Assembly: GCF_009498235.1 (NCBI RefSeq) | Contig: NZ_CP044205.1 | Location: 2,419,389-2,483,388, forward strand | Direction of reading: 5' to 3' | DNA: 64,000 bases | From: Candidatus Methylospira mobilis | GTDB taxonomy: Bacteria; Pseudomonadota; Gammaproteobacteria; Methylococcales; Methylococcaceae | Part shown: positions 2,611-24,208 of the stretch, piece by piece | Layout of the letters: each line of letters begins with the position of its first letter | How positions within the stretch are numbered: position 1 is the stretch's first letter | Translations under genes and position numbers: made by a program | The notes under the pieces: generated by a model | Seen by the model: the letters and a program-made list of their open reading frames with translations, nothing else | Told to the model about the DNA's origin: nothing | Database searches by the model: none

Positions 2611-4194
2611 TCAATTCAGCGCATCGACCGGGTTTTTGAAAACACAGTTCAGCCTTTTGATGTCGTCCAGCGTCCACAGCTTGTCGCCACGTACATGCGG
2701 TTGCGCGATCAAGGTCTTACCGTCGCTGCGCAGGCCGTGCAGTTCCTTGATCACTTCGGACAGTTCGCGTCCTTCGTACTGTTCGAAGATGTTCTGGCAC
2801 TCGTAACGTTCCGGCTCGGACAGCCACATGCGCTCGCCCCACTGGTCGCTGAAGGTATGCTTCTGACCGTTGAACTCATGTACGCGCAGCGTGCTTTCGC
2901 CCTTGCACAACGTCGGGCAGAACGGAACCTGGGATACGCGGTCGATATAGATCGGATGATTGTTTTCGATGAACCACATCAACGGGATGAAACCCGATGA
3001 CGGATCTTCGCAGCCGCGCGCGCGCCACTCGTCATAGATTTTGCCGTAGTGATCGTACCAGCCAGGGTAGTTCTCTTCGAACCAGGCCGATTCTTCCGCA
3101 TCCGGCAGATTCAGGCGGAAGAAGCCTGTGGGCCATAACGCATAAGCCAGCAGGAACAGATCGTGATGCGCCCAGTAGGCGTCTTTCTTCGCATCGCGCA
3201 GGCTCTTCGGCGAATCGACGCCATATTTGCCGAGACGGCCGATCCATATGCCGCCCCAATCTTCATAAACCCAGCGATTCCAGGTTTTAACCCAAGGCTC
3301 TACCTTGAACTTGCTGCCGTACTCGAACAGCATGCCCAGCGCCGGCGTGAAGTACTTCTGTTGCGTCCAGAAAGCATTGTTCAGGTCGGTGTTCAAGTAT
3401 TTTGCCGAAGCAGGGTCGTTGGCGATGGATACCACGGTCTGGTAGCCGTTGGCCATATGACGCAGTTCGTCGGTTTCGATCGACAGGAACACGGTCGGAG
3501 TGATTTCATCGCCGTTGGCTGCAGCCCATTCGGTAACGGCTACGATCAGCGGGTTGGTGAAGCAGGCTTCGCCGACCAGCTGCAGGTTGATGGAACACTC
3601 GACCGCGTCGCCGGAAATAAACCCGTCGGAGAATACGCGCTTCATGCCCTTCCACAGCGGCCCGATGGTGCGCGTGCGGCGCGCATCGTTATGACCGGCA
3701 GGATCCTGACCGTTCTTGGCGAAGTAGTGGTTCACGTAGGCGCACTGGTGGGTGTGACGAATTTCGTCCAGCACCTGGGCCAGGTAGCCGTTCTTCTGCT
3801 CGGCGGCGGTCGCCGAATCCCACAGCATGCCGGTTGCGGCAATAGCGTTGTACTCGCCCACTTCCAGGAAGTTGGAAACCACTTTCATGGTCTCATTCCA
3901 TTTCGGATGCACGCGATGGCCGGCGTTCAAGCGCGTCAGCGCATCCTGCAGACTGCCGAACTGGCGCTCGTCCTTGACGGACTCCATGCGCGCATATTCC
4001 TTGGCGATGAGCTTGAACTGCTCTTTGGTTTCATTCGCCATCTTGTACTTGGTGGCGTACTTGGTGCGGTTGTTTTTGAATTCCCAGTTAAAGCTTTGAA
4101 GCCAACGGTGAACTTCCTGCGCATTGACGCTGGTGGGCGCACGATGTGTGGCCAGGGCGTCGGTTGCGGCTTTGGTAGCTGCGCTTATAGCCAT
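2611..4194 (-). CDS. mmoX: Methane monooxygenase hydroxylase alpha subunit MmoX (catalytic)
   Basis: This 527-residue protein is the catalytic diiron subunit of sMMO. All six iron ligands fall at canonical positions: Glu114, Glu144 and His147 (DEIRHTHQ), Glu209, and Glu243 and His246 (ETDELRH). The active-site Thr213 and Cys151 are also present. The enzyme converts methane, O2 and NADH-derived electrons to methanol. ATG 4194 is preceded by a GAGGAG-type ribosome site. It is the first gene of the operon and lies about 100 bases downstream of a sigma-54 promoter. In known methanotrophs sMMO is expressed only at low copper, which fits the copper genes that follow. Confidence 0.99.
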   Translation of the reverse strand: MAISAATKAATDALATHRAPTSVNAQEVHRWLQSFNWEFKNNRTKYATKYKMANETKEQFKLIAKEYARMESVKDERQFGSLQDALTRLNAGHRVHPKWNETMKVVSNFLEVGEYNAIAATGMLWDSATAAEQKNGYLAQVLDEIRHTHQCAYVNHYFAKNGQDPAGHNDARRTRTIGPLWKGMKRVFSDGFISGDAVECSINLQLVGEACFTNPLIVAVTEWAAANGDEITPTVFLSIETDELRHMANGYQTVVSIANDPASAKYLNTDLNNAFWTQQKYFTPALGMLFEYGSKFKVEPWVKTWNRWVYEDWGGIWIGRLGKYGVDSPKSLRDAKKDAYWAHHDLFLLAYALWPTGFFRLNLPDAEESAWFEENYPGWYDHYGKIYDEWRARGCEDPSSGFIPLMWFIENNHPIYIDRVSQVPFCPTLCKGESTLRVHEFNGQKHTFSDQWGERMWLSEPERYECQNIFEQYEGRELSEVIKELHGLRSDGKTLIAQPHVRGDKLWTLDDIKRLNCVFKNPVDALN

Positions 4195-4963: not shown

Positions 4964-7492
4964 TCAGAACTCCACTCGCAGCAACCCCATCGCGTTTAAC
5001 GGCGTTCCCGGCAGTATGTTGTAGCGGTTCGTCGCAGCCGCGTAATAGGTTTTATCGAAAATATTTTTGATGTTCAGTTGCGCGGTCACCCTGTTGCCAA
5101 GAAAAGGAAAGCTGTACGATGCCATCGCATTGACTATGGCGTAGGCCGGCAACTGAAATGAATTGGCGTTATCGCCTTCCTGTATGCCCAGCGCCTGCAC
5201 GCCCAGCGCAGCGCTCATCCCCGTGAAGTCGCCATCTGCATCGTATTTCGCCCAAAAATTCCCCATGTCGGCCGGGGCATTAGGCAAACGCAGGCCGGCA
5301 ACAGCATATTCGGTAGTCAGCGTCGCATTGGGACCGGAAGCGATGTACGGCTGCCCTGAGGTATACCAGACGTCGTCGTGGGTATAATTGGCGATCACGC
5401 TCCAGTGATCGCTCAAGCGTCCGGTAATATCCAGCTCGACGCCGCGGCTTTCCGCAGCGGCGGGGAGAAAGGTCGGCATCCCATTGACATACAGGGTAGG
5501 CGCCGAAAAGAGATTGGTTCCTTCGATGATGACATTGGTTTTGGCAATATCAAAAGCGGCCAGCGTCACCATTAAACTCTTATCGAAAAACTCCATTTTA
5601 ACGCCGCCTTCGTACTGTGTGGCGTATGAAGGCGGGTAAGGTGAGTTACCACCGCCCGGGCTGGAAACATTGGGACTGATCGCCTGGGTAAAATTGCCAT
5701 AAATGGACAACCATGGCGCAGGCTGATAGGTGATGCCGACGCGCGGGTTCCAGGCGCTGACCGTACTGGTGGCGTTACCGGGATTTTGCCGATGGGTAGC
5801 CTCAGCCAAAGAGGGAGAACCAAAACCGTTCCCCATCACCAACGAGTCGTATCGTCCGCCAATCAGCAGGTGCAGCCTATCGTCGAAAAACGAAATCTGA
5901 TCCTGAGCGTAAGCCGCCGTCCAGCCCAGCGCACTTTGAATATATAAGGGTTTGGTATTGGCGGGTACTCCGGTGCCGGTATAAGTGGCGGGATTATAAA
6001 TATTGAACGCTCCGGCTGGATAGCCGCCAAGACCGAAATTGAAGGGAGTCACCGGTTCGTTCATATGATAGTAGTCGAAACCGAGCAAAGCGGAATGCGT
6101 GATAACGCCGGTCTCGAACTTGCCCCGCAAATCCAGATTGGTTGCAATCGTGCCTTGAGGCCATTGGCCTACATTCATCATGCGCGTTGCCCCTCCCGTT
6201 ATCGGGTTAAGAGCGGTGATGCCCGAGTATGAGTCCTGCATTTCCTGATATTGATAATAGAAACGATTAACCACGCTCCAGTCGCGACTCATTTCGAAAA
6301 TCCAGTCATAGCCGATATAGTTTCTTTTCTGCCTCATAATCGGGCTGGTGGTAAAACTCGCATCGCCGAGATAAGTGTTGACCGGCAACGCCGCCGGGCG
6401 ATTGCCTATCGCGGGCAGGCCGGGATATTCGACGATGGCCCTGTCCTGATATTGATAGTCGAGGTTCAGCTTGAATCGATCGACGGGATGCCAGGTAAGC
6501 GAAGGCGCGACGAGCACGTCCTGCGTAGCCCCGTGATTGATGAATGAGCCGGTGTCGTAATATTGCCCGTTGATCCGGTACAGCACTGTTTTATCAGGCG
6601 TCAGCGCGCCGGTCGCATCCGCTGTGGTGCGGTACATCCCATAGGAGCCGAACTGTTGCTGCAACGAATAATAAGATGTCTCCGATGGCCGCTTCAAATT
6701 CATATTAACGATACCGCCCGGCTGGACCTGTCCATACAACATCGCGGAAGCGCCTTTCAGCACATCGACCGACTGCAGGTTATTGGTGTCGAACCCCATG
6801 CTGTCAAGCATGCGCAGGCCGTTCATGTAAATATTGTTACCGGTGTTGAAACCGCGAATACTGAACGTTTGGAAACTCAAGGCGCTCGGGCTTGGAACAA
6901 TGGCGCTGACATTCGGCCCAATTGCATCCTGCACGCTGATGGCCTGCTGATCGTCCATCGTTCTATGCGTAGTACCCTGAATACCGAAAGGCGTCTGCAT
7001 GATCGGCGTGTCCATTTTATTTGCAGTCGAGGAATGGTCCATCAGATAGCGGTCGTCGCCTTCATCCGGCCCCGCATCTTCATCCGGCCCCGCGACCATC
7101 ACGGCCGGCAACAGATTGAATGGCGCCTGAACAGGCGCATCCTCCGGTTTTACTGAAACCGCGCCATCCGGGGTAATCGCATAACTCAGGCCGGTTCCGA
7201 ACAGCAGTTTTTTCAGCGCCTGACGCGTAGTGTAACTGCCCTTCACCCTGTTGCTGCGTTTAGCAGCAACAGTTTGCTCGGCGAAAAACAAGGGCGCGCC
7301 GGACTGCCTGGCCAGTTGCTGCAATGCGCTGCTCAGGGGCTGAGCGGCAATACTGAAAACATGCATGGCTTCTTCCGCACAGGCTGTAGATACGGTAACA
7401 GCCATGATTACCGACACCAGGGATGTTGCGAAAAGTCGACTCCCCCCCGCCGTTTTGCAAGTATTACCGGGAGAAAAGCGGATGGACGGCAT
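4964..7492 (-). CDS. TonB-dependent metallophore receptor with N-terminal STN signalling domain (MbnT-like)
   Basis: This outer-membrane receptor of about 842 residues has four parts in order: a signal peptide (cleavage probably after STACA), an STN domain at about 45-115 (FSIAAQPLSSALQQLARQSG), a plug domain and a 22-strand-type barrel. The barrel ends in an aromatic residue (RVEF). The STN domain binds a FecR-like anti-sigma factor, and a FecI/FecR pair lies at 26725-28581. ATG 7492 was preferred to the more distal GTG 7558 because it gives a normal signal peptide. It is strongly similar throughout to the receptor at 16631-18895 and is probably a paralogue importing copper-methanobactin or another siderophore. 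Substrate is inferred from the mbn-type genes nearby. Confidence 0.8.
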   Translation of the reverse strand: MPSIRFSPGNTCKTAGGSRLFATSLVSVIMAVTVSTACAEEAMHVFSIAAQPLSSALQQLARQSGAPLFFAEQTVAAKRSNRVKGSYTTRQALKKLLFGTGLSYAITPDGAVSVKPEDAPVQAPFNLLPAVMVAGPDEDAGPDEGDDRYLMDHSSTANKMDTPIMQTPFGIQGTTHRTMDDQQAISVQDAIGPNVSAIVPSPSALSFQTFSIRGFNTGNNIYMNGLRMLDSMGFDTNNLQSVDVLKGASAMLYGQVQPGGIVNMNLKRPSETSYYSLQQQFGSYGMYRTTADATGALTPDKTVLYRINGQYYDTGSFINHGATQDVLVAPSLTWHPVDRFKLNLDYQYQDRAIVEYPGLPAIGNRPAALPVNTYLGDASFTTSPIMRQKRNYIGYDWIFEMSRDWSVVNRFYYQYQEMQDSYSGITALNPITGGATRMMNVGQWPQGTIATNLDLRGKFETGVITHSALLGFDYYHMNEPVTPFNFGLGGYPAGAFNIYNPATYTGTGVPANTKPLYIQSALGWTAAYAQDQISFFDDRLHLLIGGRYDSLVMGNGFGSPSLAEATHRQNPGNATSTVSAWNPRVGITYQPAPWLSIYGNFTQAISPNVSSPGGGNSPYPPSYATQYEGGVKMEFFDKSLMVTLAAFDIAKTNVIIEGTNLFSAPTLYVNGMPTFLPAAAESRGVELDITGRLSDHWSVIANYTHDDVWYTSGQPYIASGPNATLTTEYAVAGLRLPNAPADMGNFWAKYDADGDFTGMSAALGVQALGIQEGDNANSFQLPAYAIVNAMASYSFPFLGNRVTAQLNIKNIFDKTYYAAATNRYNILPGTPLNAMGLLRVEF

Positions 7493-7941
7493 CGAAAAAT
7501 TCCAGGTTTTTGCCAACGCGGCATTTAGACATTTTTTTATGCGCTTGCAGGCGCACACAGGGAAGCAAAATAATTTTATCGGCTGCAGGTCCGGATGAAA
7601 CGACGATTAGAATCTACAACCATCAGCAGTAGCAAGTTGTTGATAGTCAGGAGCAGCTTGGACTCTGGCAAAAACTCGACCGCCTTCACGCTCATTGCGG
7701 TTTTATAGCGGCTAGGGAGCATCCATCCATAAAGTTCAAATGCTATCAAGAGTATATAACCATCATTGAAAAGCATAAAACATACCATAACCATAACAAC
7801 TTGTTTTAAAGTTATTTTTTATAATGGCTATGCTTTTTTGAAACGGTCATCGACTCAAAATCCCGCCCGTTCAAGTGAAATGCCACAGGTTAACCTCCCG
7901 ACAGCCTTGACACAGCGCCATGCCTGGTAGTATGAGCGGCT
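7493..7941. other. 449-base intergenic region before the STN receptor
   Basis: No credible gene lies here. The region is AT-rich around 7730-7860 and should hold the receptor's own promoter, so the receptor is probably not simply co-transcribed with the genes upstream. I could not assign -35/-10 elements or a sigma-specific box. A minus-strand frame of 72 residues (7576-7794) has no ribosome site or family feature and was not called. Confidence 0.4.
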
Positions 7942-9693: not shown

Positions 9694-9768
9694 TGTTACG
9701 ACCAAGCTCCTGTGCCATTAGCAGTGATTTAGTTGGATAATCGACAAATATTAATCACATGATTTGCA

Positions 9769-11934
9769 TCAGAAAACATTGCGACACACGCGTGCTGCTT
9801 CACACTCTTCACTATTTTTACTCATGGCATTCATATTTATACTTAGCTGTTTTAATTGTTTCCTTAACTCCTCGACCAATGCCGTTTTATCTGCGAATTG
9901 TATCTGAGTGCGCACAGCCGCCATCGATGGCTCCGGCAAATACGTTTTTTTATTTCCATCAGTTGCTGCGTTTTCATCGGCATTCACCTTAAAACCAAAT
10001 GAATTGTACAAATTGGCGTCATTGAGCCTGTGAACATAAAATGGGATATCAAGACTGGAAAAGTCCTTCAGGTTATTATCGGCGCTCCATAAAAGCCAGG
10101 CATTTAATGAATCCCATGTTACTCCGAAAGCACGCGAATCCGGCACCGTCATCTCAATCCCGGCGCCAATCCTACTAATATCCTTTCCAAGTTCATTGAC
10201 AATCGCCGAAGGATCGCATGCGCCATGACTGCACAACCACCCATACAACGCGGACTTCGCCTTTACCAATCCCCACGTTCCTTCAGCTACATACCGGGTA
10301 GTTATCATTTCTATATCTTCAAGAAATACATACAGCGCTTCATTGGCAACAACCTTGGTTATCGTTTTTTCAAAAAACTTTGCAAGTCGATCGACATAAT
10401 CTTTAAGCGGATACTTTTCGCCATTTAACGAAACTCTATTTTTTCCATTTTGTTCCAGGCCATCAACATCACTGAAAGAATGCTGCGTGACAAAAAACCC
10501 CCGAGCTTCATCCATCGAAATTACATATGAAAACTCACCAGGATCATGCTCACTATCTATGGCGCCCCATACCCTCATTTTGCCTGAAAAAATAAACGTG
10601 TCCGCCAGTTCGTTGAATTTTCTTTTAAAACTATCCTCCAAATCTATAAGACAAGGTTTATTACCATGTGTAATTACGTTTTGCACATGCAAATCCGCAA
10701 TGGAAAATAAACGGGCCATGGCTATAAGCTTTCCCCATACGGAATAGAATATTTCCGCATCATTTTGCGTTGCATTATTGTAGTCGTGTTCTTCGTGACT
10801 TAAAAACTCAACGTATCCGTAAGACTCCCGCACTGGAATACCCGTAGTTTCTTTTGTAAGAAACAAGGACCCGGGAAAACGCGGCAGGATTTTATAGGTG
10901 GGCAAGGAACAGCCGTCATCTCTCATGGCGCCGTTCAGAATCTCAGACAGGCTTTTCCCTGTCAGGAAATAGTTTTTTCTCGATACGTCTATAATATCCG
11001 CCTCGAACTTTTCCTTATCATCGTTAATTCTTGAAAGCAGCGTATCTTTTACCTTGCCCAGGTCTTCTATACATCCAACAAGATAGCAATCAGCCTCGAC
11101 ATCCCTGGGTTTGTACACCAGTTTTCTATAGCATGAGCGCGTACTAAACGTCAGAATTAAAACCTGCTGCCCCCCCTTATGAAAATCGCTGCCTGTACAC
11201 TCAATGGCGCTTAGTTTTTCCAGCTCATCACCAAAAAATTCGCCAATAAGTTCCCAGTCAGCTGATAGCCTATCGATCAACAGCCGAATATTGCTCAGGA
11301 AATGCGATATCTGCTTATCGATCGCGTATTTAGTGCGTGGATTTCTAATAAAAAACGCATCCAGCCCATCTAGCAGTTCACGTTGCGCTTTGCGCGACTC
11401 ATGACCAACCCATATTTTCCGGTCTATTACCCAGTTAAAATAATCGGCATAAGCCTGACCGTGCTCTTTGTATTTTTTAAGTTCAAGCGACTTGCACTTT
11501 AATCTGTTGTTTTCATCTGCACTGTTGAAAAATTTCGCATCACTTACAAAGCCATCCAGGGCAAAGTCATCTATAGAAGAGGGTTTCCCAACTTCTTTTT
11601 GCAATACACAATACAAATGGGTTCGGCATCGGTTAAAATCAGCCATCACACCCGACGCCACATACTGATCCATAATTCTGGCCAGACTTTCTATAAGCTC
11701 CTTATTCTGTAACGCGCAGGAAAATCTTTTTGAATAAAACAAGCTGCGAGAGGCGTCAGAGAAAGACAAGGCCGGAGCTGTAACGTTTCCAAACTTTCCA
11801 AATAGCGTGTTATATGCAATTACCAGGAAATCATTATAAATAGCAGCCCTTCTCCGGCAGGGAACATTCACCTCGACATGAATATCGTTATCAGAGGAAT
11901 CATTTTTTCTAAATTTTAATGTATATGTCGCCAT
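9769..11934 (-). CDS. Stand-alone LanM-type (DUF4135) lanthipeptide dehydratase
   Basis: This protein of about 721 residues matches the N-terminal dehydratase half of class II LanM enzymes. Motifs seen are RKLVYKPRD (about 270-278), YGYVEFL (about 372-378), DLHVQNVITHG (about 414-424), LIDLED (about 429-434) and DIPFYVHRLND near the end of the domain. These correspond to the kinase-like fold that phosphorylates Ser/Thr and eliminates phosphate to give dehydroamino acids. The C-terminal LanC-like zinc cyclase domain is absent, because the protein ends soon after. It lies 131 bases downstream of the MATE exporter on the same strand. ATG 11934 was chosen; a GTG at 11946 is possible. A substrate is not proven; the MbnA-like core nearby has Ser and Thr. 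Confidence 0.8.
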   Translation of the reverse strand: MATYTLKFRKNDSSDNDIHVEVNVPCRRRAAIYNDFLVIAYNTLFGKFGNVTAPALSFSDASRSLFYSKRFSCALQNKELIESLARIMDQYVASGVMADFNRCRTHLYCVLQKEVGKPSSIDDFALDGFVSDAKFFNSADENNRLKCKSLELKKYKEHGQAYADYFNWVIDRKIWVGHESRKAQRELLDGLDAFFIRNPRTKYAIDKQISHFLSNIRLLIDRLSADWELIGEFFGDELEKLSAIECTGSDFHKGGQQVLILTFSTRSCYRKLVYKPRDVEADCYLVGCIEDLGKVKDTLLSRINDDKEKFEADIIDVSRKNYFLTGKSLSEILNGAMRDDGCSLPTYKILPRFPGSLFLTKETTGIPVRESYGYVEFLSHEEHDYNNATQNDAEIFYSVWGKLIAMARLFSIADLHVQNVITHGNKPCLIDLEDSFKRKFNELADTFIFSGKMRVWGAIDSEHDPGEFSYVISMDEARGFFVTQHSFSDVDGLEQNGKNRVSLNGEKYPLKDYVDRLAKFFEKTITKVVANEALYVFLEDIEMITTRYVAEGTWGLVKAKSALYGWLCSHGACDPSAIVNELGKDISRIGAGIEMTVPDSRAFGVTWDSLNAWLLWSADNNLKDFSSLDIPFYVHRLNDANLYNSFGFKVNADENAATDGNKKTYLPEPSMAAVRTQIQFADKTALVEELRKQLKQLSINMNAMSKNSEECEAARVCRNVF

Positions 11935-12065
11935 TAAGACAAGCACCCTGTGGAGAAAAAATTTGACGTGGTGATCGCATGTCCCGCCTGCTGAATAAAT
12001 AAGTTGCTCGCGCGACAGGAGCTTTATTAACCCAACTATTCAATATTAATCAGGGGGAACGGTTT

Positions 12066-13571
12066 TTATAGTGCTTCATCAGGTAATAGCAAGGTATACA
12101 AGGGTATGGAATAGCGAACGGCCATTGCCAGATGAGGGGATAAACCGGTTCCGGACACCATCCGGCGCGTCTTTTTAATGCGTGGACGACCAATGGCGGA
12201 TATCCGGTAAAACGGCAGCAAATAGCCCCTTCCCATCCACACCATCGCCAGCAGTTCTCCCACAAAGATCTGACTGAAGGCAATAAACGGATTATCAAAA
12301 TAAAGCCCGGCAACGATCACAGGAAAGTTAAAAAGCCAGATAATGCGGGTATCCACTCTGGCGACCAGGTTGAACTGCATACGCGCCAGCAGTAATCCGC
12401 GCTGCAACTGATTGAAGTAACGCAAGGGCAACGATAACGACAACATCAACAGCAGTACCGACCACCACCTCCCGTGCAACTGGCCGTACAAAGTCTTCAC
12501 TAGCCAATCTCCGCGGAGCAGCAGTGCGGCCGTCACCCCCAGTACAGGCGGTAAGCCTGTCCGGCATAATAAATTGAAAGTCGAAATCATGACGAGCATT
12601 GAGCAGCCTGCCAGTTGCTGCGAGAACGAGCGCATTAACGCCATCAGCGGAGCGCTCAGCAGCAACATCAGCGCGGTTCCCATTGAAACAGCACTCAGGC
12701 GCTCCATTTTCATCGGCACGATGTACGAAGACGAAAACAGCACCAGCGTCAGCAATCCGTAAATTTGTGCCGACAACAGGCGCTGCACTTCCCAGCCGAT
12801 ATTACAGACAAAATCCCGCAGCCACGCGCGTTTCGGCCAACACAAACGCAAATTCAGTTCCGTGCGTATAACAATCAAAGACCCAAGGCTGGTCAGCAGC
12901 ATGACAATAACGCCGGCTATGTAGCAACCGTTAAAGCCCCGTGCCCAGAAAAATATCAGCACATAATTCAACAGAATTTTAAGCAGGCACTCGATACACT
13001 TCCAGACGATCACGAGACCTCCATGGTCTAACGCAATCAGAATAAACGTAGCGCTGCACGCAATCATGCGAAATGGCGCGCTGATCGAAAACCAAAACAC
13101 TGCATCGGACGCCAGTCCAGACAGTTCACGATTATCCAACAACAGAGCGGCCAGATGAGGATAGAACAATAAACCGGCCACCGCTGTAACTACGCCGATC
13201 AATACGCTGATCACTATCATTTGCGGGACGACGATTTCAACGTTTCCATCCCGCCGCCCCCGGGATACGAAAACGGAAGTCACTGCCCCTGTTGCCATCA
13301 TAATAATAGCGTCCAGTACGGCGATGCGCATCAGCGCAATATAAGCAATCGTGGATGTCTCACTCAAACGAGACAGCATGACCAGATCGATTTGCAGCGT
13401 CAACTGCGCAATACCGAAGGTAAAAAACAGCGGGAAAAAACCGCGCAGGAATTCGCGCCCTTTCATTGAAGGATTAGGTATAGATCGCTCATAGGGAACA
13501 GATTCTGCTCGTATCCTGCTGAAATCAGAAAAGATACGGAATCGAATGATTTTCAACAAACCGGAGTTCAT
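12066..13571 (-). CDS. MATE-family multidrug/metallophore exporter (MbnM-like)
   Basis: The protein has about 501 residues and roughly twelve hydrophobic segments. The MATE signature region begins at FFPLFFTFGIAQLTLQIDLV, followed by MLSRLSETSTIAYIALMRI. MATE proteins are H+ or Na+ antiporters of the inner membrane, and in methanobactin operons MbnM exports the finished peptide. The gene starts 95 bases after the MbnA-like precursor gene on the same strand. ATG 13571 with GGGG five bases upstream was chosen; TTG 13598 and ATG 13466 are alternatives. The function is supported by family and position. Confidence 0.82.
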   Translation of the reverse strand: MNSGLLKIIRFRIFSDFSRIRAESVPYERSIPNPSMKGREFLRGFFPLFFTFGIAQLTLQIDLVMLSRLSETSTIAYIALMRIAVLDAIIMMATGAVTSVFVSRGRRDGNVEIVVPQMIVISVLIGVVTAVAGLLFYPHLAALLLDNRELSGLASDAVFWFSISAPFRMIACSATFILIALDHGGLVIVWKCIECLLKILLNYVLIFFWARGFNGCYIAGVIVMLLTSLGSLIVIRTELNLRLCWPKRAWLRDFVCNIGWEVQRLLSAQIYGLLTLVLFSSSYIVPMKMERLSAVSMGTALMLLLSAPLMALMRSFSQQLAGCSMLVMISTFNLLCRTGLPPVLGVTAALLLRGDWLVKTLYGQLHGRWWSVLLLMLSLSLPLRYFNQLQRGLLLARMQFNLVARVDTRIIWLFNFPVIVAGLYFDNPFIAFSQIFVGELLAMVWMGRGYLLPFYRISAIGRPRIKKTRRMVSGTGLSPHLAMAVRYSIPLYTLLLPDEAL

Positions 13572-13666
13572 AAAACCCCGTATTCTGTTAGTATACAAAA
13601 TACGGAGTCCCTAGTTAAACCCTTAGGGCTTGTGTCACCAGTATTGGTAAAGAAGCCTCGGTTTAC

Positions 13667-13762
13667 TTATGCGGCGCTGGAGCTGCAAATGGTGCCGCCG
13701 CACTGTGCGGAACCAATTACGTTTACGGTCAAAGCCTGTTTTTTTGCTACTTTGATTTTCAT
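13667..13762 (-). CDS. Methanobactin-type precursor peptide (MbnA-like), 31 aa
   Basis: This short gene starts at ATG 13762 with AGGAG (bases 13771-13775) eight bases upstream. The leader reads MKIKVAKKQALTVNVIG, which closely follows known MbnA leaders (M-T-I/V-K-I-A-K-K, then a hydrophobic L-V-I-G segment). The likely core is SAQCGGTICSSSAA, with two cysteines (Cys21, Cys26) that MbnB/MbnC could convert to oxazolone-thioamide copper ligands. The four-residue Cys spacing differs from the Methylosinus and Methylocystis cores I know. Genes for MbnC and the truncated MbnB lie directly upstream, and a MATE exporter lies downstream. The cleavage point and modified residues are inferred. Confidence 0.85.
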   Translation of the reverse strand: MKIKVAKKQALTVNVIGSAQCGGTICSSSAA

Positions 13763-13851
13763 ACTATTCTCTCCTAAAGATAAGTATCAAACAATACGGC
13801 GGAATTTTCTGCCCGCACATACCCGATCCGCCATAACAGGTATGTACTTTC

Positions 13852-13878
13852 CGATGAATCTGTAGGGCAGATTCATCG
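13852..13878. repeat. 11-bp stem-loop between mbnC and the precursor gene
   Basis: CGATGAATCTG (13852-13862) and CAGATTCATCG (13868-13878) pair perfectly around a 5-base loop. It lies in the 162-base gap between the mbnC stop and the mbnA-like start. No T-run follows on the minus strand, so termination is unlikely. Such a structure commonly acts as an RNase barrier that raises the level of the downstream segment, which would favour excess precursor over enzymes. The role is inference. Confidence 0.6.
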
Positions 13879-13924
13879 AATCTTTATAATTTCCAGCTTG
13901 CGTACATGCGCAGGAAACAACCCG

Positions 13925-14530
13925 TCACTGCGGTATCTCGGACCAACCAGGAAACAAATCCAACTCGAATTGCGGCACGGTAAAATAACCCAGCCATTGC
14001 TCCGGCTTCGGCAACGGCTCGTCCAGTTCAATCAATTCCACTTCGCGCCTTCCGTCAACGGCATGTTGCTTCCATCCGGCAAAAACTTCCGGAAAATCGC
14101 TTCCGCCAATCACGATGCCGCTGTTGATGCCGCGGTCCATCACCGCCCAGCGCGCCGCCGAAGCCGCGATCAGTTTGTGCACAATTTCCGGCGTCAGCTT
14201 TGTGGCGAATTCTGATTGCAGCAGCCAGCAATAAACCCAAAGATAAAACGTCCAGTTAAACGATAACTGCAATTTTTCAGCCCACATCATGAAAGGGCGG
14301 AATATGGGCAAGCCGTCAGGCTGTCCTGAAAGGCCGATCAACTCAGGACAGACATCGTACAAGGTATGCCAATAAACACGAAAACTGAGATCGAGACGAA
14401 CATAGGCGCGCGTATGGCGCGGATAAGCGCCCTGCCAGTCAGGCGTATCCAGCGACTGATGATCCCAGACCGGGTGAGGTACCGGCAGCAGGTTGAGCAG
14501 ATCGGAGTCGAATATCAGTCTCCCGTTCAT
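13925..14530 (-). CDS. mbnC: MbnC-like partner of the methanobactin oxygenase
   Basis: This 201-residue protein overlaps the end of mbnB by four bases (ATGA), the coupling expected for the obligate MbnB-MbnC heterodimer. It is soluble, rich in aromatic residues (SFNWTFYLWVYCWL) and has no signal peptide. Length and gene order match MbnC, which binds the MbnA leader and with MbnB installs oxazolone and thioamide groups on cysteine. Assignment rests on length, position and general resemblance rather than on a single catalytic motif, because MbnC family members are divergent. Confidence 0.8.
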   Translation of the reverse strand: MNGRLIFDSDLLNLLPVPHPVWDHQSLDTPDWQGAYPRHTRAYVRLDLSFRVYWHTLYDVCPELIGLSGQPDGLPIFRPFMMWAEKLQLSFNWTFYLWVYCWLLQSEFATKLTPEIVHKLIAASAARWAVMDRGINSGIVIGGSDFPEVFAGWKQHAVDGRREVELIELDEPLPKPEQWLGYFTVPQFELDLFPGWSEIPQ

Positions 14531-15300
14531 GCTGCCGCTCCTTCCGTATCACAGAAGACAGCGCGTAACTTTCTGATATCGGATACGATGCTGTCATATT
14601 CGATATTCTGATCACGCTCATAAGTCATGGTCGCGCCGGGTTTTTCGAAACGTTTTTTATAACCTGCAAGGAATCCCAGCGTTTCTTCGGACATTAAACC
14701 GTCGTGGGAATCCACGATGACTGAGGGGTTCTCCGTCAGGGACTGACGGTAACTCGCCACATGATAATGAAGGGTCGAGTCGATGACGTTTTCCCAACTG
14801 TCCAGCGCGAGACCGCAATTAAGATAGGCGCAAACAGCATTGGACGCATCGAACAGGGTTTCGGAACCGGTCTCCTTTGCTAGACGCATGAAAAATTCCG
14901 GTGCGTCCGCTCCGCTGTCCATGATCGATGGAAAATTTTCCAGATAAAGCGGCTGCCTCAGCTGTTCCTGCCACCATTCGACTTTTTGCCTCACCCGCTC
15001 GTAATCGCGCTGATAATCCAGTTCCGCCAGATGGTAAAGCTGCCGTCCTTTCGGATTGGAGAAATGCGCCAGATGATCGGAAACGTACAAGGGTTTCATC
15101 GCATCGATAAACTCGCGCAAACGTTTGGCAAACGAGATCAAATGATCTTCGTCGCTTTCCAGAAACCGGGAATGCATAATATGAAAGCCGACCGGACAAT
15201 CGAAGGCCTCTGCAACTTCCTTGACAGGAACATGCAGAAAATTATCGATCAAAAACTCGACGTAATCGACCTCCCCTTCCCCTACCATCTGCCGCACCAT
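14527..15300 (-). CDS. mbnB: MbnB-like MNIO (DUF692) iron oxygenase, 5' end removed by an IS element
   Basis: The remaining 257 residues carry MNIO/MbnB motifs: GFHIM (His40), YVSDHLAHF (Asp75, His76), YLENFPSIMD (Glu121), FDASNA (Asp151), YHVASYR (His180), VDSHD (Asp197, His199) and TYERD (Glu228). These supply the multinuclear iron site that oxidises Cys to oxazolone-thioamide. Upstream of ATG 15300 the frame continues as TFTQGSTLE to base 15324, matching the MbnB N-terminus, but it then enters the IS3 element and meets a stop. The original start codon and first beta strand are missing. Any product must begin at ATG 15300 or an IS-derived start, so the gene may be inactive. Confidence 0.85.
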   Translation of the reverse strand: MVRQMVGEGEVDYVEFLIDNFLHVPVKEVAEAFDCPVGFHIMHSRFLESDEDHLISFAKRLREFIDAMKPLYVSDHLAHFSNPKGRQLYHLAELDYQRDYERVRQKVEWWQEQLRQPLYLENFPSIMDSGADAPEFFMRLAKETGSETLFDASNAVCAYLNCGLALDSWENVIDSTLHYHVASYRQSLTENPSVIVDSHDGLMSEETLGFLAGYKKRFEKPGATMTYERDQNIEYDSIVSDIRKLRAVFCDTEGAAA

Positions 15301-15388
15301 TTCCAGCGTGGAACCCTGAGTAAATGTAATGGTTTAATGAACCCGGACACTTCCAAAGGCAGAATTTATACTGTCAGCAGAGGTGAGC

Positions 15389-15706
15389 ATGAAGACAAAC
15401 GAGACAAAATACAAGCGCCCCAAATACAGTCTGGAATTCAAGCAGGATGCCGCCAAGCTGGTTCTTGAAAAAGGCTACAGCCTGAACCAGGCTGCCGATC
15501 ATTTGGGCATATCATTAAGTGCCCTGGGACGCTGGGTCCGGACGGAACGCAAGCCTTCCGGCAATGAGTCTGCGACGAAAAAGCCAGGCTTGAATCTGGG
15601 GGATCACGATGAATTGATTCGTTTGCGCAAGGAAATTGAACAATTACGCATGGAGCGTGAAATCTTAAAAAAGGCCGCAGTCTTCTTTGCGAAAGAAGCC
15701 GAATAA
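15389..15706 (+). CDS. IS3-family transposase OrfA (helix-turn-helix subunit)
   Basis: This protein of about 105 residues has a helix-turn-helix region (YSLNQAADHLGISLSALGRW) and a C-terminal leucine-zipper stretch (DELIRLRKEIEQLRMEREIL). This is the standard OrfA architecture for binding IS ends. ATG 15389 is preceded by GAGGTGAGC; GTG 15383 is an alternative. Near its 3' end an A6G run (AAAAAAG, about 15667-15673) provides the slippery site for the -1 frameshift that yields the OrfAB fusion transposase. Confidence 0.93.
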   Translation: MKTNETKYKRPKYSLEFKQDAAKLVLEKGYSLNQAADHLGISLSALGRWVRTERKPSGNESATKKPGLNLGDHDELIRLRKEIEQLRMEREILKKAAVFFAKEAE

Positions 15707-15723
15707 AGTACGGGTTTATTCAG

Positions 15724-16572
15724 GTGCAACAGAAGACGTATCCAGTGACCGTGCTCTGTCGAGTGATGCAGGTGAGTACCAGTGCGTATTATGAGTGGTT
15801 AAAAGCCCGACAGGACAGCGATAAGGATCAACAAGATCAAAAGCTTGCCGAGAAGGCGAGGCAGATTTTCATCGACAATAAACAGTGCTTTGGTTCGCGT
15901 CGTTTAGCGGATCGATTGCAAAAACAAGGTCATGCCGTTGGGCGTTTTAAAACGCGGCGCATCATGCGAGATTTAAAGTTGAAGGTTCGCTATCCCAGGC
16001 GAGTTAAGGTCACCACCGATAGTAACCATAACGAGGCCATTTCGCCCAACCGCTTGGACCGGCAGTTCCAGGTTGCCAAACCCAATCAAGTATGGACGAC
16101 AGATATTACCTACGTGTGGACCCTACAAGGCTGGCTTTATGTCGCGGTGGTCATCGATCTGTTTTCCCGGCAAGTCGTGGGCTGGGCGATTGATGATCAC
16201 ATGCGGACCTCGCTGTGCGTCAAGGCCTTGCAAATGGCCTTCTGGCGCCGTAAGCCGCCACCCGGTCTGTTGCATCACTCGGATCGTGGCAGCCAGTATG
16301 CGAGCCGGGAATATCGCCGGCATTTAGAAGTGATGAAGATGGAACAGAGTATGAGCCGTAAAGGGAACTGTTGGGACAACTCGCCGACCGAACGCTTTTT
16401 TCGCAGCTTGAAGCATGAGCAGCTCAACTACGAAAAATTCAAGACCCAAGAGGCCGCAAAACTGAGTGTGATCGATTATTTGGCTTTTTATAATGGCCGT
16501 CGTTCACACTCAATATTGGGTTATCAGACCCCTCTCGAATTCGAGCGGGAATTTTATCGAAACGCTGCCTGA
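15724..16572 (+). CDS. IS3-family transposase OrfB (DDE integrase domain)
   Basis: The integrase-core protein of about 282 residues has its three acidic residues in the expected contexts: VWTTDITYV, LHHSDRGSQYAS and GNCWDNSPTERFF (Glu). It lies in the -1 frame relative to OrfA and is normally made as an OrfAB fusion by frameshifting. The GTG at 15724 is only the first possible independent start. Both frames are intact, so the element may still move. Confidence 0.94.
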   Translation: MQQKTYPVTVLCRVMQVSTSAYYEWLKARQDSDKDQQDQKLAEKARQIFIDNKQCFGSRRLADRLQKQGHAVGRFKTRRIMRDLKLKVRYPRRVKVTTDSNHNEAISPNRLDRQFQVAKPNQVWTTDITYVWTLQGWLYVAVVIDLFSRQVVGWAIDDHMRTSLCVKALQMAFWRRKPPPGLLHHSDRGSQYASREYRRHLEVMKMEQSMSRKGNCWDNSPTERFFRSLKHEQLNYEKFKTQEAAKLSVIDYLAFYNGRRSHSILGYQTPLEFEREFYRNAA

Positions 16573-16630
16573 ACAGGTGTCCGGTTTTTGTTGACCATTA
16601 CATACCTCCGTAGCGCTACGCAGACGATGA

Positions 16631-18895
16631 TTAGAAATCCACCCGCAACGCACCCATCACGTTAAGCGGTGTTCCCGGAATAATGTTGAAACGATTGCTC
16701 GCCGTCAGGTAATACTGTTTGTCGAACAGGTTTTTAAGATTCAGCTGCGCCGTGACCTTTTTGCCGAGCAGCGGGAAGCTGTAACCGATCATCGCGTTGG
16801 CAACGGCATAGGCCGGCAGCTGATACGAGTTGGCGTTGTCGCCTTGCTGTTGCCCCATAGCTTGAACGCCCAGAGCGGTGCTCAGACCGCTGAGATCCCC
16901 ATCTCCCTCGTATTTCACCCACAAGTTACCCATGTCAGCGGGTACACCAGGCAACCGGTTTCCGGCAACGGCGTACTGCGTGGTAATCGTCGCAGTGGCG
17001 CCGGATGCGACATAAGGCTGCCCAGAGGTGTACCAGACGTCGTCATGGGTATAGTTGGCGATCACGCTCCAGTTCTCGTCGATGCGCCCGGTGATGTCGA
17101 GTTCTGCGCCCCGGCTTTCCGCCGAAGCAGGTATTGAAGTCGGATATCCGTTGATATAGAAAGTAGGAGCCGAAAGCAGGTTAGTGCCGCCCATAATCAC
17201 ATTGGTTTTGGTGATATCGTAAGCCGCCAGCGTCATCATCAAGCGCTTGTCGAAGAATTCCATCTTGATGCCGCCTTCGAACTGCGTACCGTAAGAAGGA
17301 GGATAAGGAGGAAAGCCGCCGCTGTAACCGCCCGCATTGGGGCTGAGCGTCTGCGTAAAGTTGCCGTAGATCGAAATCCACTTTTCAGGCTGCAGCACGA
17401 TACCGGCGCGTGGATTCCATGCGCTGGTGGTGGCAAAAGCTTGACTGAGATTCGTTCTATTGCTGGTAGCGGGGAAAGCGGGCGAACCGAATCCGTTACC
17501 GACAATCAGCGAATCGAAACGCCCGCCCAGAAGTATCTGCAGCATGTCGTCGAAGAAGCTCATCTGGTCCGTAGCATACGCCGCCGTCCAGTTTTGATAG
17601 TTCTGGGTATATACCAGATTGCTCGCACTACTGAACGGTACGCCGGTACCGGTATAGGTAGCCGGGTTATATATATTGAACTTGCCGGCCGGATAGCCGG
17701 CCAATCCGAAGTTCAGCGCGTCCGCCGGATTGTTCATATAAAAGTAATCGAAACCGAGCAAGGTCGAATGTTTTACCGGACCGGTTTCGAATTTACCCTT
17801 AAGATCCAGGTTGGTGGCGATGCTGTCTTCGAAGAACTGCCCGATATTCGTGCTGCGCGTAGCCGCGCCGGTATTCTGAGTAACGCCGCTGACTGACGTA
17901 CCTGAGTTATAGTTCCCCATGTATTGGTAATAGAAACGGTTAACCAGGCTCCAGTCGTCGTTGAACTTGAAAGTAGCGTCATAGCCGACATAATTTCTAA
18001 CCTGACGAGTCAACGGACTGTTGGTGATGCTGGAGTCGCCGAGATAAGTGCTGACCGGCAATGCCGCAGGCCGGTTATAGATTGCGGGCAGGCCGGGATA
18101 CATAACCATCGCCTTGTCCTGATACTGGTAGTCTAGGTTCAGCGTAAACTGTTCTGTCGGCTTCCATGTCAGCGACGGCGCCACCAGCGTGTCCTGATTG
18201 GTCGACATGTTGTCGATAAAAGAGCCCGTGGTGTAATACTGGGCATTGAGCCGGTAAAGCAGCGTTTTATCAGGTGTAATAGCGCCGGTCGCATCCGCCG
18301 TGGTGCGGTACATTCCGAAAGAACCGAACTGCTGCTGCAACGAATAATACGGCGTATCCGAGGCGCGCTTCAGATTCAGGTTAATCATGCCGCCCGGCTG
18401 CACCAGCCCGTACAGCATTGCGGCCGCGCCTTTCAGCACATCGATCGACTGCACGTTATTGGTATCCATCCCCATACTGTCGCCAATTCTCAGTCCGTTC
18501 ATATAAATATAGTTGCCTGTATTAAAGCCACGTATGGTGTAAGTCTGATAGGTAAACGCGGGGCTGCCCTGCACTACGGAACTGGTATTGGCGTTGATCG
18601 CGTCCTGCACGCTGATCGCCTGCTGGTCGTCCATGGTTCTGCGCGTTATGGACTGTACGGCGAACGGCGTATCCATGATCGGCGTATCCATTTTATTCGC
18701 TGTCGAGGTGTGATCGATCACATAGTTGTCCCCCCCCTCTTCCACACCGTCTACCAGCGATTTCTCCGCTGTGTCCTTCACCGTAACTGTCGGCAATTGA
18801 GCAGGTGTGGATGCCTGAGCAGGAGTTTCGGCGTAAGCCGCTTGCGCCAATCCTGTCAGAAACGCAGCCATTAAAGGTGTTACGATCTGTTTCAT
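16631..18895 (-). CDS. TonB-dependent metallophore receptor (MbnT-like), first gene of the methanobactin-type operon
   Basis: The outer-membrane receptor has about 754 residues from ATG 18895 (AAGGGA ten bases upstream). It has a signal peptide ending AQAAYA, a short linker, a plug domain starting NKMDTPIMDTPFAVQSITRR and a large barrel ending RVDF. It has no STN domain, unlike its close paralogue at 4964-7492. Before the IS insertion its stop codon was followed, after about 20 bases, by the mbnB ribosome site, so receptor and biosynthesis genes were one operon. Import of the copper-loaded peptide is the likely role, inferred from context. Confidence 0.83.
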   Translation of the reverse strand: MKQIVTPLMAAFLTGLAQAAYAETPAQASTPAQLPTVTVKDTAEKSLVDGVEEGGDNYVIDHTSTANKMDTPIMDTPFAVQSITRRTMDDQQAISVQDAINANTSSVVQGSPAFTYQTYTIRGFNTGNYIYMNGLRIGDSMGMDTNNVQSIDVLKGAAAMLYGLVQPGGMINLNLKRASDTPYYSLQQQFGSFGMYRTTADATGAITPDKTLLYRLNAQYYTTGSFIDNMSTNQDTLVAPSLTWKPTEQFTLNLDYQYQDKAMVMYPGLPAIYNRPAALPVSTYLGDSSITNSPLTRQVRNYVGYDATFKFNDDWSLVNRFYYQYMGNYNSGTSVSGVTQNTGAATRSTNIGQFFEDSIATNLDLKGKFETGPVKHSTLLGFDYFYMNNPADALNFGLAGYPAGKFNIYNPATYTGTGVPFSSASNLVYTQNYQNWTAAYATDQMSFFDDMLQILLGGRFDSLIVGNGFGSPAFPATSNRTNLSQAFATTSAWNPRAGIVLQPEKWISIYGNFTQTLSPNAGGYSGGFPPYPPSYGTQFEGGIKMEFFDKRLMMTLAAYDITKTNVIMGGTNLLSAPTFYINGYPTSIPASAESRGAELDITGRIDENWSVIANYTHDDVWYTSGQPYVASGATATITTQYAVAGNRLPGVPADMGNLWVKYEGDGDLSGLSTALGVQAMGQQQGDNANSYQLPAYAVANAMIGYSFPLLGKKVTAQLNLKNLFDKQYYLTASNRFNIIPGTPLNVMGALRVDF

Positions 18896-19221
18896 GATTT
18901 TTTTATCCCTTCTTGTCAATCTGGCATATTTCGTAGACGCCGAAGACAGGTAAAAACCGCCAACTTTTTTTAGAAAAGTTAAATATTATTTGCCGTTTCA
19001 ATTTTCAGATTAATTGGCGGGTTTTCCGGACGCAGGCGTCTATCTTTAGATAAACACTATCGGCCGTAAAGCTCGTGTAATACTGAAAAATGCAGTGCTG
19101 CTCATGGGTCGACAAAGCCCCCCTGAGCGCACTATAAGAATTTGTATCCTCGACAAAAAACAACTTGAAATCCACCCTGAGTCTATTGATGGACTTAATC
19201 AATCCGTTTTAAGGGAGCATC
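18896..19221. promoter_or_regulatory. Divergent promoter region between the receptor and aminotransferase genes
   Basis: This 326-base AT-rich region separates the minus-strand receptor/mbn operon from the plus-strand aminotransferase. Promoters for both must lie here. I could not identify a sigma-54 site or a clear operator palindrome. A minus-strand frame (19005-19202) shows no gene features. Confidence 0.4.
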
Positions 19222-20529
19222 ATGCAGACTGGTCAAACACTTTGGAAACGCGCAAAACAGATCATTCCAGGCGGAAATATGTTGCTGGCCAAACGTCCGG
19301 AATCGTTCCTGCCTGACTTGTGGCCGGCTTATTTCAGCAAAGCGAAAGGCTGCAGAGTATGGGATATGGACGGAAACGAGTATATCGACATGTCCATCAT
19401 GGGTATCGGCGCGCATCTCCTTGGTTATGGCCACCCTGCGGTTGACGAAGCGGTGTGCAAGGTGATCGCCGACGGCAATATGTCCACACTGAACGGCCCT
19501 GAGGAAGTCTATCTGGCGGAAAAATTGATCGAACTTCACCCTTGGGCGGATATGGCGCGCTTTGCACGCACGGGCAGCGATGCCAATGCGGTCGCCATCC
19601 GTATCGCGCGCGCCGCCAGCGGCAGGGATAAAGTGGCTTTTTGCGGCTTTCACGGCTGGCACGATTGGTATATGTCGGCCAGCCACGACGATAAAGACTG
19701 TCTGGCGCAACAGTTCCTGCCTGGCCTTGAACCCAACGGCATACCGAAAACGCTGAGCGGAACCGCTCTTCCGTTCGTCTATAACGATTACGCATCGCTG
19801 GAAACACTGGTGCAGCAACACGATATCGGCGCCATCAAGCTGGAAATAGCACGCCACACGGAGCCTCAGGACGGTTTTCTGCATCAGGTGCGCAAACTGG
19901 CGAGCGAGCGCGGCATCGTGCTGATTTTCGATGAATGCACCTCAGGCTTTCGCGAAACACTGGGCGGCGTGCACAAAAGATACGATGTAGAACCCGACAT
20001 GGCGCTGTTCGGCAAAACGCTGGGCAACGGTTACGCGATATCGGCAATTCTGGGAAAACGCCAGATAATGGAAGCAGCGCAAACCTCGCTGATCAGCAGC
20101 ACGTTCTGGACTGATCGTATCGGACCGGCTGCCGCGTTGAAAACACTGGAGATCATGGAGCAAACAGCGCCATGGGACGCCGTGATCCGTACCGGATTCG
20201 AAATACGCCAGGGCTGGCAACACCTCGCCGACAAATATGACGTTCCTATCAGACATTGGGGGTTGCCTTCAATGGCGCGTATCAACTTCCCTTGCACCAA
20301 CAACGGGCTGGCTTACAAGACGCTGATCACTCAGGAAATGCTGGCGCGCGGCTATCTGGCCGCCAACAGCGTTTTCGTATGCATCGAACATAGGCCTGAC
20401 ATCATCGCCGGTTTCTTTGAAGCACTGGATCCAGTATTCGCATTAATCGGGGAATGCGAACATGGGCGCGATGTGACGGCACTGCTCAAAGGTCCGGTAT
20501 GCCATGGGAGCTTCAAGCGTGTAAACTGA
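19222..20529 (+). CDS. Class III (glutamate-1-semialdehyde mutase-like) PLP aminotransferase
   Basis: The protein has 435 residues. Features of the fold are the glycine-rich phosphate-binding segment FARTGSDANAVAIRIAR, the PLP-ring Asp in LIFDECTSGFR and the Schiff-base Lys in ALFGKTLGNGYAISAI. GGGAG lies before ATG 19222. The substrate cannot be read from sequence; relatives include HemL-like and sugar aminotransferases. Some methanobactin operons encode the aminotransferase MbnN, which converts the N-terminal amine to a carbonyl. This gene is divergent from the receptor/mbn operon and could play a similar part, but I cannot show that it belongs to the MbnN family. Confidence 0.85.
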   Translation: MQTGQTLWKRAKQIIPGGNMLLAKRPESFLPDLWPAYFSKAKGCRVWDMDGNEYIDMSIMGIGAHLLGYGHPAVDEAVCKVIADGNMSTLNGPEEVYLAEKLIELHPWADMARFARTGSDANAVAIRIARAASGRDKVAFCGFHGWHDWYMSASHDDKDCLAQQFLPGLEPNGIPKTLSGTALPFVYNDYASLETLVQQHDIGAIKLEIARHTEPQDGFLHQVRKLASERGIVLIFDECTSGFRETLGGVHKRYDVEPDMALFGKTLGNGYAISAILGKRQIMEAAQTSLISSTFWTDRIGPAAALKTLEIMEQTAPWDAVIRTGFEIRQGWQHLADKYDVPIRHWGLPSMARINFPCTNNGLAYKTLITQEMLARGYLAANSVFVCIEHRPDIIAGFFEALDPVFALIGECEHGRDVTALLKGPVCHGSFKRVN

Positions 20530-20635
20530 AACATGATGACACGCAGAACAAGACTTCATGGGCCGGAAAAACTTTCGGATTCATGGCCCCTGTATAAAGG
20601 CAAGGAAACGGCTCGTCCGTAGGCGGCATCCATTT

Positions 20636-21109
20636 TCAAAACTTACCCGCATCCAAGCCCACCGGCACATCGGCAGTAACCTGATCGAAGCGGAGCATGC
20701 GCTTGCCTTTGTGATCTTTCATAAAATCGGCGGCGTCTTCCGGCGTTGCCAGCGGCACCAGTTCATGGCCCATCGGGCCAAGCACGTCGGAGCCGGTGAC
20801 AAAAAGCGCCTTTTTCGCATCGATTCTTTCCAGGCTGTAAAACTCGGTCACATAAATGGCGCTGATTTCCTCGCGCTTGTGACCGGGAGCGTACCTGGCA
20901 AGATCGTAAAGAAACTTGAACATATCCTTGGCGCCATCGAAATGATGAGCATGGCCGTTCTTCCACACTACGGTAGCCACCCAGTTCGGATACTTGGCAA
21001 CAAGCATGCCGCAGACCGGACAGAGACTTTTCGTGTCGGGCTTGGGCGGCTCTGCCGCCAGGAGCACGGCAGATGTAAAAAAAGCGACAAGAAATGCCAG
21101 ACTTCTCAT
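20636..21109 (-). CDS. NosL-family copper-binding protein
   Basis: This exported protein of 157 residues has a signal peptide (AFLVAFFTSAVLLAA) followed by the NosL copper motif CPVCGM (Cys30, Cys33, Met35). NosL proteins are periplasmic Cu(I) chaperones. In denitrifiers they serve nitrous-oxide reductase, but many methanotrophs carry them without nos genes. It is the last gene of a minus-strand run (24783-20636) that also encodes an ABC transporter and a SCO protein, so copper delivery across the inner membrane is the probable theme. Confidence 0.85.
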   Translation of the reverse strand: MRSLAFLVAFFTSAVLLAAEPPKPDTKSLCPVCGMLVAKYPNWVATVVWKNGHAHHFDGAKDMFKFLYDLARYAPGHKREEISAIYVTEFYSLERIDAKKALFVTGSDVLGPMGHELVPLATPEDAADFMKDHKGKRMLRFDQVTADVPVGLDAGKF

Positions 21110-21116
21110 TGTATGT

Positions 21117-23922: not shown

Positions 23923-24208
23923 AAGTCCGTGGCGGCATCAGGCTGCCGGTTGGAAAATGGTCGAAGGCAAGCGGATGATCCTGAAAGGCCGAGTGCAAAT
24001 CCGCCTGTGCCGGGTGCCGGGTATAGCGCGCCTCGTTGAACAGGGCAAGATCGGCGAGACCGAGCCCCGCTGCCAGCCCGGCGGTTTCCGCCCGCTCGGC
24101 AGCGCGTGATCGCGCAAGCAGCGCAGCATCGATAAAACTCAGGCAGAACAGCGCCATCGCGATGGTCAGCGCCGCCAGCGCCAGGGTCGAAGGATGCAGC
24201 GTTTTCAT
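23879..24208 (-). CDS. Small membrane-anchored protein of the copper-linked ABC operon
   Basis: This 109-residue protein has a single N-terminal hydrophobic helix (TLALAALTIAMALFCLSFID), probably an uncleaved anchor, and a soluble tail rich in Ala and His. It overlaps the SCO gene by four bases upstream and the permease gene by 44 bases downstream, which argues that it is real despite its size. No family was recognised. Confidence 0.65.
   Translation of the reverse strand: MKTLHPSTLALAALTIAMALFCLSFIDAALLARSRAAERAETAGLAAGLGLADLALFNEARYTRHPAQADLHSAFQDHPLAFDHFPTGSLMPPRTYAYELLDRKTAQPD

Follow-up and report, generated by a model that had tools for sequence, protein, structure and literature searches.

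The stretch analysed here, 64,000 nucleotides of Candidatus Methylospira mobilis (contig NZ_CP044205.1; hereafter the window), carries on its minus strand four genes of the methanobactin (mbn) families in the order mbnB-mbnC-mbnA-mbnM, the first of which has lost its start to an insertion sequence (IS). The assembly consists of one contig of 4,703,534 bases, the window is about 53% G+C, and a vanadium nitrogenase model scores above its cut-off in a profile search of the genome. The description of strain Shm1 gives 4.7 Mb, 54% G+C, both molybdenum and vanadium nitrogenases, and 211 IS regions that are chiefly IS3 and IS5; in that paper the words methanobactin and chalkophore have 0 occurrences each (PMC6956133).

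Results

Methanobactin gene families in the window

What is left of mbnB lies at 14527..15324 and reads from codon 7 (FTQGSTLEMV...) to its stop, with the first usable ATG at 15300. The MNIO open reading frame (ORF) beginning at that ATG (14527–15300) scores 390.8 bits on the MbnB model TIGR04159 (cut-off 325), against 73.6 bits on BufB, the best of the other MNIO models, and 43.7 on HvfB. The start of mbnC (13925..14530) overlaps the mbnB stop, and its product, the partner of MbnB, scores 280.9 bits on TIGR04160 (cut-off 185) and matches the solved MbnC chains 7fc0 and 7tcr. Downstream of mbnC come the precursor gene mbnA (13667..13762) and mbnM (12066..13466), which encodes a MATE exporter that reaches 551.6 bits on NF045578 (cut-off 285). 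The listed ORF of mbnM extends to a TTG at 13598 (12066–13598), and the model match begins at residue 49 of it; the likely start is ATG 13466.

An earlier reading of this DNA, made from the sequence alone, had proposed methanobactin-type biosynthesis genes with a MATE exporter, and the curated profile models for MbnA, MbnB, MbnC and MbnM all bear out that family membership. The genome has one place where a DUF692 protein exceeds the MbnB cut-off, and the second DUF692 protein in it scores just 35 bits. Likewise, in a tree with 30 other Methylococcales DUF692 proteins (among which TglH was not represented as such), 17 MbnB rows including that of the window form one side of a branch with 100/100 support; the MNIO protein thus falls inside the MbnB clade, and the placement outside it that had been named as telling against the proposal did not occur. 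Judged by profile scores and tree position, these are genuine methanobactin genes.

Their arrangement is another matter. The comparison set comprises 35 loci besides the window (32 named loci on genome contigs and three on plasmids), and mbnA was found in 34 of them, always upstream of mbnB, whereas in the window it follows mbnC. The order B-C-A-M, all on the minus strand, had been noted before; it holds, and on these sequences it is unique among the loci compared. Placement of mbnA directly upstream of mbnB is described as the rule for all groups but Group V (PMC3621798), and it is a property of the operons described so far, not of the chemistry. MbnP, MbnH and MbnF have no match in window positions 8001–24000; when MbnH was sought genome-wide, partial matches of 34–43% were found, all to generic di-haem peroxidase-like frames.

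An MbnA-type precursor that lacks a leader arginine

The 31-codon mbnA ORF encodes MKIKVAKKQALTVNVIGSAQCGGTICSSSAA, which scores 51.9 bits on the Pfam family Methanobactin, PF25751 (cut-off 27), and 29.4 bits on TIGR04071 (cut-off 24), and combines a lysine/arginine-rich leader with a cysteine core of approximately QCGGTICSSSAA. Within this core, Cys21 and Cys26, in a Q-C and an I-C pair, are the candidate modification sites. The leader aligns without gaps with those of its relatives, with 20 residues preceding the first core cysteine, such that the MbnA-type leader recognised earlier is kept across 34 other MbnA; the lack of leader conservation that had been named as a refuting result was not seen. 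One departure had gone unnoticed: an arginine that 34/34 other MbnA carry five residues ahead of a core cysteine is missing, the residue at position 16 being an isoleucine. The precursor is therefore of MbnA type by its family scores but not in this otherwise universal residue.

Every MbnA is described as holding at least one C(G|A|S)(S|T) motif (PMC3621798). In the window the motif is present solely at the second cysteine (C-S-S), the first being C-G-G. This first motif and the missing arginine would fit a cluster that makes a divergent MNIO-modified peptide rather than a copper-binding methanobactin. We consider such a product very unlikely: the MbnB, MbnC and MbnM equivalog models are all passed, the second cysteine obeys the published rule, and the core, with four residues between its two cysteines (C-x4-C), is similar to the cores of MbnA from Komagataeibacter and FeB_33.

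A ribosome-binding-like stretch, AGGAGAG, lies upstream of the mbnA ATG. The 162-bp mbnC-mbnA intergenic region (13763..13924, minus strand) is predicted to form two long RNA hairpins (−53.1 kcal/mol, z −3.5 relative to shuffles) and has its sole full-length copy in the genome here. Structured RNA ahead of mbnA was rejected as a shared hallmark, as a comparable z is found in 3/34 of the relatives' regions upstream of mbnA. Rfam gave no family match in 12000–19400.

An insertion sequence occupies the start of mbnB

Immediately upstream of the remaining mbnB lies an IS3-family insertion sequence of 1,278 bp (15325..16602, plus strand), antisense to mbnB, with HTH_Tnp_1 and rve domains and transposase frames at 15383–15706 and 15724–16572. 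Its bounds were set by comparison with at least 11 other full-length copies in the genome, 95.4–99.8% identical; scoring covered 40 of 48 first-look candidates, and more copies are possible. The nearest sister copy differs at 3 of 1,278 bases, and this 99.8% identity suggests a recent event. A perfect 3-bp target-site duplication flanks six of the 12 copies and a 4-bp repeat one more; the remaining five, among them the copy at mbnB, have none.

The left flank of the IS starts at mbnB codon 7 (TTT ACT CAG GGT). On the other side, 28 bp ending in GGAGGTA (16603..16630, minus strand) separate the IS from the stop of a receptor gene and hold no mbnB start codons. Codons 1–6, which read M-x-I-G-x-N in relatives, are thus absent from both flanks, and in place of a complete, translatable mbnB there is a gene whose first six codons have been replaced by the IS. 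Read upstream in frame from ATG 15300, the codons are GAA CTG ACG TCC GGT CAG ACT TTT, beyond which the IS contributes ACA ATT ACC and the frame ends at a TAA; there is no ATG, GTG or TTG upstream of ATG 15300 in the MNIO frame because the IS occupies 15325–16602. The sequence-only reading had overlooked this break in the MNIO gene. Its phrase "biosynthesis genes" stands as to the identity of the genes; as to working biosynthesis in this strain, it may overstate what the strain can do, since the mbnB start has been lost.

Because codons 1–6 are gone from the junction, insertion alone is insufficient, and an adjacent deletion or rearrangement probably accompanied it. Given that mbnA precedes mbnB in all other loci that have it, one may speculate that the deleted stretch included a canonical upstream mbnA as well. 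Reciprocal recombination between IS copies was considered and rejected, for want of support: none of the duplication-free copies is flanked by sequence matching up with the mbnB junction. A degenerate search for the missing start (ATG NNN ATH GGN NTN AAY), confined to 300 bp around the listed IS copies, had no hit.

Residues and predicted fold of the shortened MbnB

At the iron-ligand positions named for MbnB (PMC8888699), the residues are kept in the window protein; the correspondence was drawn from position and motif and not from an alignment with the Vibrio sequence. The M-x-I-G-x-N start is lost. In an AlphaFold model of the intact Gallionella MbnB there are eight strands, of which β1 comprises residues 2–7 (mean predicted local distance difference test score, pLDDT, 90.8); in that of the window protein from ATG 15300 there are seven, β1 is missing, and the first helix is shortened from 12 to 6 residues. 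Furthermore, the window MbnB departs at 9/67 otherwise invariant sites among 31 rows (L089 and L093–L096 dropped), the most of any, two of these being the lost G and N; the next-highest row departs at 4/62. None of the four mbn genes contains a stop codon or frameshift.

Distribution and ancestry

Among 311 Methylococcales genomes, MbnB exceeds its cut-off in the window genome solely; the MNIO proteins of the other methanotrophs were tried as MbnB and rejected, the best of them reaching 79.6 bits (cut-off 325). The window MbnB protein is matched in 1/38 family genomes, again its own, and MbnC is above cut-off only there in 369 sampled Gammaproteobacteria and in 398 sampled members of the phylum, the latter with five more genomes of one genus matching below cut-off (these genome samples overlap). 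A phage search gave no match. As a separate observation, an IMG/VR contig (L152:5001–5780) encodes an MbnB relative, 31% identical, which is the lone viral-contig match.

The nearest relatives lie elsewhere. In the MbnB tree of the 35 loci and the window (in the first version of which L089 was badly extracted, 25% filled), the window joins L067, a contig of the Gallionella sp. metagenome-assembled genome STB_49, with 98/96 support, and it does so in the MbnC tree as well (94/88). In a concatenated MbnB, MbnC and MbnM tree of 29/36 loci and 913 columns, made after dropping L081, L082, L089 and L093–L096, the two are sisters with 100/100 support and fall on the non-methanotroph (Group III) side (96/99). 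On this tree the approximately unbiased (AU) test rejects a pairing of the window with Methylocystis parvus (p 1.6e-13), and acquisition from alphaproteobacterial methanotrophs was likewise set aside, as that grouping is rejected (p-AU 0.000124). Identity to the Gallionella proteins is the highest found (MbnB 65% and MbnC 59% over tree columns, MbnM 49%), and the window MbnB is 54–60% identical to plasmid-borne MbnB of alphaproteobacterial methanotrophs. The Gallionella locus differs from the window in having the order P-H-A-B-C-M (L067:5513–10659), an intact mbnB, and a TonB receptor that looks unrelated; the same stretch has frames that we take from their translations to be recO-, pdxJ- and acpS-like, which is consistent with a chromosomal locus. 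Taken together, a position within the non-methanotroph lineage with Gallionella nearest suggests that the window genes were gained independently of the operons of alphaproteobacterial methanotrophs. Methanobactin operons are described as occurring near mobile elements (PMC3621798).

Weighing a probable recent loss of function

We think it likely that a separately acquired mbnB-mbnC-mbnA-mbnM operon was subsequently disabled by the IS at mbnB in this sequenced gammaproteobacterial sMMO (soluble methane monooxygenase) methanotroph. There are several observations that pull the other way. The mbnB frame is intact from codon 7 to its stop, and initiation at ATG 15300 or at a rare AUU could yield a protein; the truncated protein is confidently folded by AlphaFold (mean pLDDT 87.4), and it may well still fold. 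MbnC (2/37) and MbnM (2/31) are not outliers in departures from invariant sites. The promoter scans are weak, with 9 sites found where 7.9 are expected. In RefSeq even the mbnB of Methylosinus trichosporium OB3b, which makes methanobactin, is listed as a pseudogene (PMC12997803), so an annotation that looks broken is no proof of non-production. With regard to ancestry, the 17-row MbnB set, once 30 distant DUF692 proteins had been added, put the window next to Methylocystis parvus (95/53, weak Shimodaira–Hasegawa-like approximate likelihood ratio support), and the composition test made with the concatenated tree was failed by the window.

Some of these observations would be expected if the operon works despite the IS, with MbnB made from ATG 15300 or from an AUU at the IS end and still modifying MbnA. 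The remainder of mbnB and the whole of mbnC, mbnA and mbnM are open and conserved, the shortened protein has its confident predicted fold, and mbnA has a good ribosome-binding-like site. We nonetheless regard a working operon as unlikely, in that barrel strand β1 with its conserved G and N is missing, no ribosome site or promoter-like match lies upstream on the minus strand (specifically, no sigma-70-like site between 13791 and 19400), and the transposase is antisense to mbnB. Hence loss of MbnB activity in the sequenced strain is what we infer from the sequence and the predicted fold, and methanobactin production by this strain is doubtful.

It is also worth considering that these genes never worked for methanobactin here, or ceased to do so long ago, and are drifting, their decay having begun before the IS arrived. 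The window has a long branch and the highest count of departures in MbnB; in addition, the leader arginine has been lost, mbnA is displaced behind mbnC, and MbnP and MbnH, which are present in many relatives, are not adjacent. Against this, all four genes are free of stop codons and frameshifts, the iron-ligand positions are kept, MbnC and MbnM have no excess of changes, and the near-identity of the IS to another copy suggests a recent event. Long-standing decay therefore seems improbable, and the preferred reading of a disabled operon is best stated as a probable recent loss, possibly in genes whose constraint was already relaxed.

Receptors, sMMO and neighbouring genes

Two TonB-dependent receptor genes lie on the minus strand near the mbn genes. 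The first (16631..18919), upstream of mbnB, matches TIGR01783 and the plug and barrel Pfam families and is a candidate importer of copper-methanobactin. The second (4964..7558), between mbn and sMMO, has STN signalling, plug and barrel domains. The two products are 65% identical to each other; they are 45% (first) and 40% (second) identical to the mbn-linked receptor of Methylocystis parvus, about 40% identical to the Methylosinus C49 receptor, and nearly unrelated to that of Gallionella (24% over 115 amino acids). Matches at E <= 1e-100 occur in 8/38 family genomes including that of the window. The nearest homologue in another family genome, at 44%, is as close as the M. parvus receptor, and for this reason we do not call either a methanobactin receptor. 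The earlier claim of TonB receptors beside mbn holds for their presence and strand. The receptor type is common in the family, and the two may import methanobactin.

The gene that is presumably mmoX, encoding the sMMO hydroxylase alpha subunit (2611..4194, minus strand), lies 8 kb from the mbn genes on the same strand, in agreement with the previously noted proximity of about 10 kb. A search of 38 family genomes found homologues 89–95% identical to it in 11 besides this one.

Just downstream of mbnM, a gene on the minus strand (9769–11946) encodes a LanM-like dehydratase with a DUF4135 match and without a cyclase match. It retains the kinase-site motifs DxH, YKPR and DLHxxN by comparison with CylM and has a low G+C of 0.42. 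No clear precursor for it was noticed among nearby small ORFs, no match exists in the 35 other mbn loci or in plasmids, and 311 Methylococcales genomes hold two distant matches besides itself. A methanobactin-lanthipeptide hybrid chalkophore, in which MbnB and MbnC would form the copper-binding heterocycles and the LanM-like protein would act on the Thr and Ser of the QCGGTICSSSAA core, would require that the shortened MbnB still works; given also that a link of this protein to methanobactin finds no comparative support in the other mbn loci, we give the hybrid only the slimmest of chances. The next gene (7942–9705, minus strand) encodes a 587-amino-acid protein with no Pfam match even at E 5.

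Further upstream, positions 20636–28611 (minus strand) hold a block that looks to be concerned with copper handling: NosL, a membrane protein, an ABC ATPase and permease, SCO1, an FGE-sulfatase domain protein, a second NosL, FecR and FecI. The FecI-like sigma factor (28063–28611) and the FecR-like protein (26725–27699) are separated from the receptor by the two NosL, SCO1 and FGE-like genes. Beyond them lie a sigma-54 activator (29121–30932) and, near it, a cysteine-rich protein (31426–31779, plus strand) with a weak match to Csp1 copper storage proteins (26.2 bits, cut-off 100).

Discussion

It is informative to consider how such a system would have worked and where it would now fail. In an intact system, MbnC would hold the MbnA leader while tri-iron MbnB oxidises the core cysteines (Q20-C21, I25-C26) to heterocycle and thioamide; the leader would then be removed, MbnM would export the product, and a TonB receptor would return the copper complex. 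On our reading, mbnB was hit near its 5′ end by an IS3-family element, and codons 1–6, the ribosome-binding site and perhaps a canonical upstream mbnA would have been lost in a deletion next to it. The methanobactin pathway would thereby be broken at its first step with the candidate uptake receptors kept, and we infer that the strain now imports methanobactin at most.

The sequence-only reading had contrasted this gammaproteobacterial mbn set with the characterised methanobactins of methanotrophs, which are tied to alphaproteobacteria. Methanobactin operons are already known in non-methanotrophic Gammaproteobacteria, and the novelty lies in the methanotroph host and not in the class. This holds for the literature searched, in which mbn biosynthetic genes are not reported from any Methylococcales genome, the methanobactin reviews of 2017 and 2024 and the "theft" paper being outside its reach; no paper retrieved for methanobactin together with Gallionella names either in its title. 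Specifically, the mbn operon is given as absent from Methylococcus capsulatus Bath and Methylomicrobium album BG8 (PMC3621798), methanobactin as perhaps limited to a small number of type II methanotrophs (PMC4688376), and its reported makers as a few alphaproteobacterial species (PMC8262016). M. album BG8 is described as having mbnT alone, without biosynthetic genes (PMC12997803), and the available portions of PMC12452194, PMC11964084 and PMC6423226 name no gammaproteobacterial methanotroph with mbn.

Comparison with known systems shows both shared and divergent features. The core genes A, B, C and M are common to the window and to the Group I/II operons of Methylosinus and Methylocystis, and the M. 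parvus receptor is the closest in type to those of the window; these operons differ in their order A-B-C-M-F, MbnF being next in three plasmid loci. The Group III operons of non-methanotrophs (Pseudomonas, Azospirillum, Cupriavidus and others; PMC3621798) differ in having mbnA first, mostly cysteine-doublet cores, and MbnP and MbnH usually adjacent. Gammaproteobacterial methanotrophs have also been described as practising "theft" of methanobactin (Kang-Yun 2022, as cited in PMC12997803). The window genome resembles them in having TonB receptors that could import methanobactin, but additionally holds biosynthetic genes, which BG8 is reported to lack (PMC12997803).

The absence of methanobactin genes from gammaproteobacterial methanotrophs is stated or implied in the available text of PMC4688376, PMC8262016 and PMC12997803, and the operon in the window contrasts with this. 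If our reading is correct, methanotrophs gained the methanobactin copper system at least twice. Furthermore, the recent insertion would offer an example, open to testing, of a producer that became a consumer, and it cautions that the methanobactin trait may have disappeared from stocks kept in culture.

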